37,771 bases of DNA, from the NCBI GenBank assembly GCA_903930015.1, contig CAIYXB010000133.1:1-37771 (forward strand). The letters run 5' to 3'. Every line of letters starts with the position of its first letter. Within the stretch, counting starts at the first letter, position 1. Made by a program: the position numbers and the translations under genes. Positions 8,071-35,842 of this stretch are shown piece after piece. The notes beneath the pieces are model-generated. The model made no database searches, had not been told where the DNA came from, and saw only the letters and a program-made list of their open reading frames with translations. The stretch comes from an uncultured bacterium. GTDB lineage: Bacteria; Cyanobacteriota; Vampirovibrionia; LMEP-6097.

Positions 8071-8170
8071 GGGTTCTCATTCAAATTATCGCAGATAATT
8101 ATGCTATATTATTTTGATGCCTTTTGAGGGTCAGCCTTATCAACTTTTCATGTGTTATAGAAATCCAAGA

Positions 8171-8307
8171 AAATTTTCTTCAAATTTCAACCACCCTTAC
8201 GCATTCGGCGCAGCCGCTGTGATGATGTTTTCGTTGTTTTGCTTTGCAAAACTTAAATGCTACATCAATCCGATATGCTTCAGGGTGTTGCAAATTTTCC
8301 GAAAACT
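8171..8307. repeat. ~137-bp imperfect palindrome
   Basis: Arms ..TTTTCttCAAATTTcaACcACCCTtacGCATtcgG.. and rc TTTTCggAAAATTTgcAACACCCTgaaGCATatcGG; apex GTTTTGCtttGCAAAAC. Confidence 0.7.
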
Positions 8308-8323
8308 TTTTTCGTTTATTTAG

Positions 8324-8444
8324 ATTTGATTGCTTAGGCAGCCCAAATTTTTGCGACGGGCACGGTTAAGTTAGCTATGGTGATAAATCCTGATTAAAAT
8401 CACAGGTGTCAGCAAAAATGAGCTGTTGTCTAAGCAATCAAATT
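8324..8444. repeat. ~121-bp palindrome with long inverted ends
   Basis: Left arm ATTTGATTGCTTAGGCAGCccaaATTTTTGC; rc of right arm ATTTGATTGCTTAGACAACagctcATTTTTGC; inner GTGAT...ATCAC. Confidence 0.75.
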
Positions 8445-10902: not shown

Positions 10903-11342
10903 TGTCATTGCTCTAATGGTCATGAAATTCGTTGACAATTTTTCTGCAATAAAACTTTCGCTATATCTCAATTATTTCAAGCTGGTCATTCCAATGGGTT
11001 CAAACTTCCCTCCGCAAGGGAAAATCCTATGATTGTCTCACAAACGCATCCGCTCTTAAATTCACTTTAGACACTTAAATGATTTCAGACTGGTTCGCCA
11101 ATTATGGATTTTCACTTTGCTCCAGTCGTTTTCACCTCATTTCCATTTAAAGCTTAAAATAATTGAGATAAAGCTATTAGTGTTAATTAGGTCTAATTGC
11201 AATCAAATGAAATCACCTTTTTTCTAAGCGTTTGCGTAAGCTCAGGCGCAGAAAAAAGAGTGATTTCATTTGATTATTGCAATAGAGTTAATGATTACTA
11301 CTTAAACTGTCAACGAATTTCATGACCTTTATAGCGATGACG
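10903..11342 (-). repeat. ~440-bp nested palindromic element H, copy 1
   Basis: TIRs TGTCATTGCTCTAATGGTCATGAAATTCGTTGACA / CGTCATCGCTATAAAGGTCATGAAATTCGTTGACA (inner 20 bp identical); inside are a large hairpin (~10958-11176) and a second hairpin (~11178-11305). Reverse complement matches ~19182-19635. Confidence 0.88.
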
Positions 11343-19181: not shown

Positions 19182-19635
19182 TACTTCGTCATTGCTGCCA
19201 GGTTCTTGCAATCCGTTAACACTATAAGTAGTAATAATTAACTCTATTGCAATATTCAAATTAATTTACTCTTTTTACTGCGCCTGATCTTCGAAAAGGC
19301 TCCGTAAAAAGGTAAATTAATTTGATTGCCATTAGCTTCAATTAGCACTAATAGCTTTATCTCAATAATTTCAAGCTTAAAATGGAAATGAGGTGAAAAC
19401 GACTGGAGCAAAGAGAAAATTCATGATTGGCGAACCAGTCTGAAGTCATTTTTGTGTCTAAAGTGAAATTACGAGCGGATGCGTTTGTGAGGCAATCATT
19501 GAATTTTCCTTTGAGTAAGGAAGTTTGAACCCATTGGAATGACCAGCTTGAAATTATTGGGATAAAGCTAACGATTTATTGCTTAGTAATATCAACAAAA
19601 TGAATGACATTTATGATGGCGAGTGCAGCGAAGTA
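19182..19635 (+). repeat. ~440-bp nested palindromic element H, copy 2
   Basis: Plus strand matches reverse complement of 10903-11342 over its length (e.g. identical GGAAATGAGGTGAAAACGACTGGAGCAAAG, GAGCGGATGCGTTTGTGAG, GTTTGAACCCATTGGAATGACCAGCTTGAAAT) with preserved internal hairpins. Confidence 0.88.
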
Positions 19636-20731: not shown

Positions 20732-22027
20732 ATGATTTTTGACACAATAGTAATTGGAGCAGGTGCAGCAGGTTTTATGGCTGCTATCACTTCAGCGCAG
20801 TGCGGTCAAAAAACTCTCTTAGTTGATTCAAATACCAAGCTTTGTGAAAAAATTCGAATTTCAGGAGGAGGAAGGTGTAATTTCACAAACATAAATACAA
20901 GTTATGAGACTTACAAATCTCACAACCCTAATTTTGTTAGATCAGCGCTTTCTAGTTATACCCCAGAAGATTTTATTGCTCTTGTAGAAAAATATAAAAT
21001 CAAATTCCATGAAAAAAAGTTAGGACAATTGTTTTGTGATGATAGTTCGCAAGATATTATAAATCTACTTAGAAATGAAGCGCAAAATTCTGGTGTTGAA
21101 CTGCTTTTCCCAGTAAAAATAAAAAAAATTCATATCAAAGATATTGACTTGAGTCTAGATATACAGAAAAAAATAAAAGCGAAGCTAGATTTTAAGATAA
21201 AGAAAAATTTTGCCTGTGAATCAAATGGAAAAATATTTGAAGCCGATAAATTGATTATCGCTACTGGTGGGCTTTCTATTCCTCAGCTTGGTACAAGTTC
21301 GTTTGGCTATGATCTTGCTAGTTTGCTTGATCTAAATATTATAAATACTGAGCCTGGATTAGTTCCATTACTTTTAAATCATAAATTATTCAATGATAAT
21401 TCAGGACTGAGTTTTGATGTGAAATTAAATGCTAATGAAGCATCTTTTAGAGAAAATATTTTAATTACTCATAAAGGTCTTAGTGGTCCGGCTACGCTGC
21501 AGATTTCTAATTACTGGCAACCGAAAGATGAGCTTGTTGTGAATTTTTGTCCGGATTTAAACCTAGAGGATTATTTGTTGAAAAATAAAAAGAACAATCC
21601 TAATATTAAGCTAAGTAAATTAATCTCGGAAATCAAGCAAAAAAAGAATATAGCAACCTTCACAAATAAAATTGATAGAGAATTTATTTTCTCAAAAAAC
21701 TTCTTAAAGAGTCTTGCTGAGCTTTTTGTAATGGATAAAAATATACAGGAATATTCTGATGACAAATTGAAGGAATTTGTAAACTTACTTAGTTCAATGA
21801 AGCTTAAACCTAGCGGATATGAGGGCTATGAGAAGGCTGAAGTTACGAAGGGTGGTATCGATACAAAAGAACTTGATCAAAAAACGATGCAAGTGAAATC
21901 TTGTGAGGGATTATATTTTATTGGAGAGCTGGTTGATGTTACAGGTTGGCTTGGTGGTTATAATTTTCAATGGGCTTGGTCAAGTGGGTTTCTTGCTGGC
22001 CAAAGTCATACCAATCCCACAAATTAA
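20732..22027 (+). CDS. NAD(P)/FAD-dependent oxidoreductase, HI0933/BaiN-like
   Basis: DTIVIGAGAAGFMAAITSAQCGQKTLLVDSN...KIRISGGGRCNFTN; ATGGLSIPQLGTSSFGYDLA; AEVTKGGIDTKELDQKTMQVKSCEGLYFIGELVDVTGWLGGYNFQWAWSSG. Confidence 0.95.
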   Translation: MIFDTIVIGAGAAGFMAAITSAQCGQKTLLVDSNTKLCEKIRISGGGRCNFTNINTSYETYKSHNPNFVRSALSSYTPEDFIALVEKYKIKFHEKKLGQLFCDDSSQDIINLLRNEAQNSGVELLFPVKIKKIHIKDIDLSLDIQKKIKAKLDFKIKKNFACESNGKIFEADKLIIATGGLSIPQLGTSSFGYDLASLLDLNIINTEPGLVPLLLNHKLFNDNSGLSFDVKLNANEASFRENILITHKGLSGPATLQISNYWQPKDELVVNFCPDLNLEDYLLKNKKNNPNIKLSKLISEIKQKKNIATFTNKIDREFIFSKNFLKSLAELFVMDKNIQEYSDDKLKEFVNLLSSMKLKPSGYEGYEKAEVTKGGIDTKELDQKTMQVKSCEGLYFIGELVDVTGWLGGYNFQWAWSSGFLAGQSHTNPTN

Positions 22028-22110
22028 ATTAAGGTGCCAAGCAGAGCGATCTAGCTCTGCGACAGGCGCATATGAAAATCTTTGTGGGTTTAATTGGTAT
22101 GTTTAGTATT
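22007..22110 (+). repeat. Dispersed palindromic repeat family B, copy 2
   Basis: CATACCAATCCCACAAA...TTTGTGGGtttaATTGGTATG inverted ends; inner GCAGAGCgatctaGCTCTGC; homologous to 897-997 in inverse orientation. Confidence 0.82.
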
Positions 22111-35593: not shown

Positions 35594-35842
35594 TTATGCT
35601 GAAAGTTTTTTGTCTTCATCATCTTCGTGATCATCTTTATCACAACCGATTAGTTTTTTGTCTTCATCATCTTCGTCTTCATCATCGTGATCATTGCTGA
35701 TTAATTCAGCGCCATCATCTTCGTGATCATCTTTATCACAATTTAAAGTTGATAGCTCCTCTGTTGATACAACATTTGCTGTTGCACTTGAAAAACCATA
35801 TAATAACGCTAGCAAAACAATAGCGAGTGTCTTTAATTTCAT
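35594..35842 (-). CDS. Small secreted acidic Asp/Glu/His-rich repeat protein
   Basis: Signal peptide MKLKTLAIVLLALLYGFSSATA; repeats NCDKDDHEDDGAELI / GCDKDDHEDDEDKKL; flanked by a terminator. Confidence 0.75.
   Translation of the reverse strand: MKLKTLAIVLLALLYGFSSATANVVSTEELSTLNCDKDDHEDDGAELISNDHDDEDEDDEDKKLIGCDKDDHEDDEDKKLSA

Follow-up and report, generated by a model that had tools for sequence, protein, structure and literature searches.

BIMEs and BOX elements are mosaics of palindromic sub-units found between genes, and duplication of a TA dinucleotide at the insertion site is typical of Tc1/mariner-IS630 transposases. The MITEs listed for bacteria include RUP, NEMIS, Bcr1, ERIC, YPAL, Nezha and EFAR (PMC3733652). 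CGTC-tagged REPs, among them RPE-4/RPE-6 and dRS3, take the form of 20–40-bp hairpins with an 8–9-bp stem and a CCA tail; no transposase has been reported for them, and the enzyme that mobilises them is an open question (Di Nocera et al. 2013, PMC3733652).

Here we compare these systems with H, an element of an uncultured bacterium. Like the bacterial MITEs, H is short, non-coding, multi-copy and dispersed between genes, and it ends in terminal inverted repeats. It differs from them in being larger, in nesting several independent palindromic elements, in belonging to a family whose ends carry varied interiors, and in having outer ends without a visible target duplication. With CGTC REPs it shares the tip [C/T]GTC-ATTGC, tags that face outward as they do in dimers, and the circumstance that no dedicated transposase has been found; unlike those small tailed hairpins, however, H has 34–38-bp arms that lie 225–540 bp apart, enclose modules and bear no tail. 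One module of the family, C, resembles MITEs of the Tc1/mariner-IS630 type in its TATAGTA ends, TA duplication, lack of coding sequence and many solo copies, whereas its interior, kept across three genera, forms a covarying, conserved hairpin whose core is conserved and largely unpaired. H also recalls BIMEs and BOX elements as a mosaic of palindromic sub-units in intergenic gaps, but those mosaics are laid side by side, while the modules of H sit within the loops of other modules. The H family adds a new variant, and an uncommonly elaborate one, to the known bacterial miniature transposons; a literature search found no paper describing it, most subscription papers being outside that search's reach.

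H copies and a relative in the window

The window, by which we mean the whole 37,771-nucleotide stretch analyzed, contains one complete H copy (10903..11342, + strand) with the architecture O-A-B-O, O denoting the outer ends. Its left outer arm (10904..10941, tip TGTC-ATTGC) and right outer arm (11304..11341, tip GCAAT/GCGAT-GACG) are 38 nt long and 89% complementary by repeat search. Between them, on the same strand, lie module A, an inner palindrome (10960..11188) with arms at 10960–10984 (AGCTATATCTCAATTATTTCAAGCT) and 11164–11188, and module B, a hairpin (11189..11301) with a stem at about 11199–11280. An earlier note on this DNA, made from the letters alone, had described terminal inverted repeats of ~35 bp enclosing two hairpins, and the outer arms, the inner arms of A and the hairpin of B were all recovered. 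It had also reported two homologous nested inverted repeats, which a repeat search of the window bears out: the copies are inverted relative to each other and match at 10946–11236/19292–19582 (87% complementary) and at 11238–11342/19187–19291 (82% complementary). The second copy, placed at ~19182-19635 in that note, does exist, but its extent had been overstated; it is an O-A-B-O element on the − strand at about 19187..19609 whose upstream outer arm has decayed badly.

The count of two elements in the window holds for H itself, but a third relative had been overlooked. Modules C and D occur without outer ends at 8161..8443 (+ strand), where they match the C-D portion of an element on contig C234 at 90% identity, and the core of this C copy (8170–8309) scores 160 bits with covariance model R1. 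The C+D element lies between divergent genes and upstream of a gene resembling TIGR03279, a match whose score falls under that family's cyanobacterial cut-off. Protein-family matches of this sort do no more than suggest a host on the Melainabacteria side of Cyanobacteriota.

No ORF of at least 80 aa spans H, and the neighboring ORFs stop on either side of it, in line with the absence of a sensible ORF noted before. The + strand folds as RNA at −163.6 kcal/mol against −82.8 ± 5.8 in dinucleotide shuffles (z −14), the − strand reaches z −13, and H folded as DNA reaches z −11. In Rfam, nothing matched H at gathering thresholds. A permissive search gave, for module B, two microRNA-hairpin families whose low scores fell well short of their gathering thresholds, and we regard these matches as chance.

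A modular family and its nested element C

The host assembly (GCA_903930015.1; 2,196,890 bases in 256 contigs, 96.8% complete, contamination 0.66%) holds 83 BLAST matches to H, whereas a lack of further copies would have refuted the earlier note by its own terms. The outer terminal repeat GTCATTGCTGTAAGGGTCACGTAATTCGTTGACA occurs at 47 sites in this genome with at most three mismatches, and a shorter pattern of it at 64 sites, each against 0 for the reversed control; the ends of the outer unit read GTCATTGCTGTAAGGGTCAC. These host-genome counts are lower bounds, drawn from searches and extracted stretches. Among 60 relatives, eight of them in the host's family, H had nothing but one 58-base match (E 7e-4). 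Plasmid and phage collections held no match to H, the plasmid collection none to the C/D element, and exact core patterns were absent from the genome collection and from viral contigs. Viral contigs did hold six 18-mer matches to C, none of which the covariance model recognized as a copy of the module, and a weak match to the model of A in one relative (G008) was an unrelated palindrome.

When the consensus sequences of the modules were placed on 241 kb of extracted host DNA, they formed 85 clusters, with O in 58, A in 36, B in 29, C in 44 and D in 20; by covariance model, A has 16 substantial copies. The same outer ends bound different interiors, A+B in H and C+D in another subfamily, and they lie 225–540 bp apart. 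The main architectures are O-A-B-O (beyond the window on contigs C70, C171, C52 and C99), O-B-O, O-A-O, O-C-D-O, O-C-O, O-C-A, solo C and solo O, and in further copies A, B or D is missing, inverted or interrupted.

Several of these forms recur. Six O-B-O copies at different loci (C136, C194, C46, C151, C99 and C211) have one common junction, CAATAATTGA, which sits at the short direct repeat AATAATT and retains half of A's right arm. We considered the B-only form as the original empty site for A and rejected it: because half of A's right arm persists and the junction falls at a short direct repeat, the B-only form is a deletion. The simplest reading of the common junction is a single deletion that later spread. 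A was deleted separately in C199, at AAGCT, and C5 and C121 have a C-D fusion in common. A small palindrome (AGACCTGTT...AACAGGTCT) lies within A in C52 and C99; C179 and C226 have gained a second palindrome (AGAGTTACTACAAAG...) next to it, one that is also visible at the edge of contig C7. Comparison with C34, C145 and C12 shows that the A core of C202 is flipped with respect to its flank, the outcome expected if the two arms of A recombine with each other.

Deletion derivatives at many unlinked loci thus argue that the outer-ended unit spread without coding capacity. The earlier note had proposed a non-autonomous mobile element, and the many dispersed copies with common ends, no coding capacity and amplified deletion derivatives agree with it; it had also ranked the layout above REP/BIME and simple MITEs in elaborateness, and H is indeed a composite of nested palindromic modules. 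H probably represents one of the structural classes within a composite family of nested, MITE-like elements, and we propose the following mechanism. A non-coding unit with 34–38-bp outer terminal inverted repeats and CGTC/TGTC-ATTGC tips would have been copied to many intergenic sites, and other palindromic elements would have inserted within it and within each other. Modules would then have been lost, joined or flipped at short direct repeats and microhomologies, with amplification of some of the resulting derivatives. The family shows miniature transposons of differing types that nest in a bacterium and composites of them that are copied as units, in copies numerous enough for the order of events to be read.

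The nesting is clearest for module C, which ends in TATAGTAAACC...GGTTTACTATA, numbers about 50 copies in the host genome by covariance model, and is found both solo and within O units. Set against the H copy of the window, contig C118 shows an H-type element into which C has inserted, duplicating TA cleanly (empty site GATTACTA/CTTAAACTG; filled site GATTACTA/CAGTAAACC...TTTACTA/TA/CTTAAACTG). In C81, C lies on the other strand at a second TA, 3 bp away from the C118-type site. On each side, 10 of 11 C copies have a TA, and solo copies are flanked by it. C, with its TATAGTAAACC ends and TA target duplication, reads as a MITE of the Tc1/mariner-IS630 type, and its TA-duplicating insertion points to an ordinary cut-and-paste transposase for this module. 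Of the insertions in the proposed mechanism, that of C is shown by the filled and empty sites.

C was present in 5 of 382 genomes of the class, counting the host genome itself, and in three genera in all; its multi-copy relatives are in genera g3 and g4, within the host's family only. IS630 fragments in the host genome lie at contig ends and have ends (TATAGTATTCC) with only the first TATAGTA in common with C. The 3' ends of IS630-type transposase genes with the terminus TATAGTATTCCTCTAATG lie at contig edges at three loci (L128, L129 and L130), apparently belonging to a multi-copy IS. At three other loci (L197, L198 and L199), C copies carry a similar insert of ~64 nt at a conserved bulge; this is another nested palindromic module, amplified along with its host C.

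Outer ends and candidate transposases

The outer ends of H, [C/T]GTC-ATTGC, are identical to the tip of CGTC-tagged REPs. Such tips also occur in the host genome (47 exact, against 0 for the control), and several of the host's CGTC REPs are outward-facing dimers (e.g. L186-L190). If the host is a melainabacterium, its lineage is not among the phyla for which PMC3733652 lists CGTC repeats. Variant H ends have ...CTCGCAAT, joined to TGTAAGG, in place of the tip, and these look like fusions with CGTC REPs. The H family thereby links long-TIR elements to CGTC-tagged REPs. Although the outer ends carry the tag by which such REPs are recognized (CGTC or TGTC, then AT), H is not a CGTC REP, because its 34–38-nt arms, hundreds of bases apart and without a tail, depart from the REP hairpin in size, stem and tail. 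The outer unit may nonetheless be moved by the same enzyme as CGTC REPs. Nor does H agree with GTAG REPs and their RAYTs, given its [C/T]GTC tag and the Y1 loci described below.

Target duplications at the outer ends showed no excess over shuffles in 12 copies; since the copies are old, such duplications may have been lost by mutation. No pair of outer ends encloses a transposase or other gene, in an assembly that breaks at these repeats. We infer that the outer unit is mobile in trans, judging from the one genome of the genus that was compared, and that a candidate transposase would act on its outer ends from elsewhere.

A rival candidate for moving the outer unit is a Y1 transposase (RAYT-like, IS200/IS605-type), which would act on single-stranded DNA in the way that REPs are mobilised. 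The host genome has five RAYT-like Y1 (HUH) transposase genes of 280-316 aa (L124-L127 and contig C33:10295-10549), and this reading is in keeping with the tip common to CGTC REPs, the outer ends without target duplication and the strong folding of both strands. Against it, at the four Y1 loci examined of the five, neither H-family repeats nor REPs flanked the gene, and no transposase is reported for CGTC REPs (PMC3733652). We therefore hold Y1 transposition to be a tentative alternative, and a rather unlikely one.

A broader proposal makes the folded single strand the unit that is acted on throughout the lineage: hairpins would recruit hairpins, arms would be rewritten by template switching, and a dedicated factor would recognize the C core and also serve the CGTC-tipped outer unit. 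If true, such a system would supply the missing mobilising enzyme of the CGTC repeats; we think it improbable. Spread via folded ssDNA, as the earlier note had suggested, stays a conjecture; what was seen is the TA-duplicating insertion of C, together with concerted change of hairpin arms.

Hairpin arms, RNA structure and gene placement

In A, B and C, the arms of one copy resemble each other far more than those of different copies. Mismatches within and between copies averaged 0.27 and 1.35 for the inner arms of A, 0.56 and 3.13 for B, and 1.33 and 3.02 for C (0/5000 permutations in each case). The outer arms, 225-540 bp apart, show no more than marginal concert (233/5000 permutations for the core, 1244/5000 for the arm as a whole). 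An alignment of 18 copies of B has double changes at six stem pairs, and its variant pairs comprise 35 full double changes against 19 mismatched or wobble cells. Template switching at quasipalindromes has been described in E. coli and in yeast (PMC7202029, PMC3820800). Because the arm changes are concerted, mostly double, and fade with arm distance, we infer that template switching caused the concordance: close inverted arms would be kept complementary by copying one arm from the other within a hairpin during replication. The concordance could instead come from selection for pairing or from subfamily ancestry. The family offers a natural series in which arm-to-arm correction can be measured against arm distance.

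Selection for the fold is the basis of another reading, under which H, and module C most of all, would act as structured RNA, be it as cis-acting UTR elements or as a family of sRNAs, with incidental spread. The C core is conserved and largely unpaired, and its stems covary strongly in three genera; 21 pairs show double changes against 8.8 ± 1.7 (0/500 shuffles), far over slid controls; an absence of covariation was another outcome that would have refuted the earlier note. On the + strand, however, G-U cells do not outnumber A-C cells in A (4 vs 6) or C (28 vs 42), and only B has such an excess (8 vs 3). Copies also lie in either orientation relative to genes, whole branches are lost or inverted, the insertion of C duplicates TA, and Rfam, in which a known family would likewise have refuted that note, offers no credible match. 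A structured-RNA origin is thus very unlikely, and the idea that H as a whole is one large structured ncRNA fares no better, its branches being deleted or inverted.

None of the elements lies inside a gene, and where one overlaps an ORF the overlap is at most 60 bp. The 49 elements with both neighbors in view fall in 24 convergent, 21 co-directional and 4 divergent gaps, as compared with 7, 35 and 23 among 65 other gaps, an excess in convergent gaps (24/49 vs 7/65) with p = 1e-5. This over-representation between convergent genes, with rarity between divergent ones, is what transcription terminators or mRNA 3' stabilizers kept for the host's benefit would show, but H is missing from relatives in the host's family, its size and modularity are beyond any terminator, and purifying selection on insertions gives the same bias, so that we find a host function of this kind highly improbable. 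Purging of harmful insertions would leave such a bias; under the composite-MITE reading, insertions would persist at sites where they do no harm, chiefly gaps flanked by convergent or co-directional genes.

An assembly artefact or contamination deserves almost no credence: the draft is fragmented and many contigs end in elements, but many complete copies have distinct sequences and distinct unique flanks, contamination is 0.66%, and module C recurs in independent genomes. Contigs terminate within H-family elements because repeats break assembly, and the family accounts for many of the breaks in this draft genome.

The window holds other repeats. A dispersed palindromic repeat of ~100 bp, with ends like ATACCAATTAATCCCACA...TGTGGGATTGGTAT, lies at 897-997 and, inverted, at 22008-22109; a third trace of it flanks an element at another locus (L047), and it is probably a separate MITE family. 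At 35604-35731, three 48-bp tandem repeat units lie within a small ORF (35594-35842).
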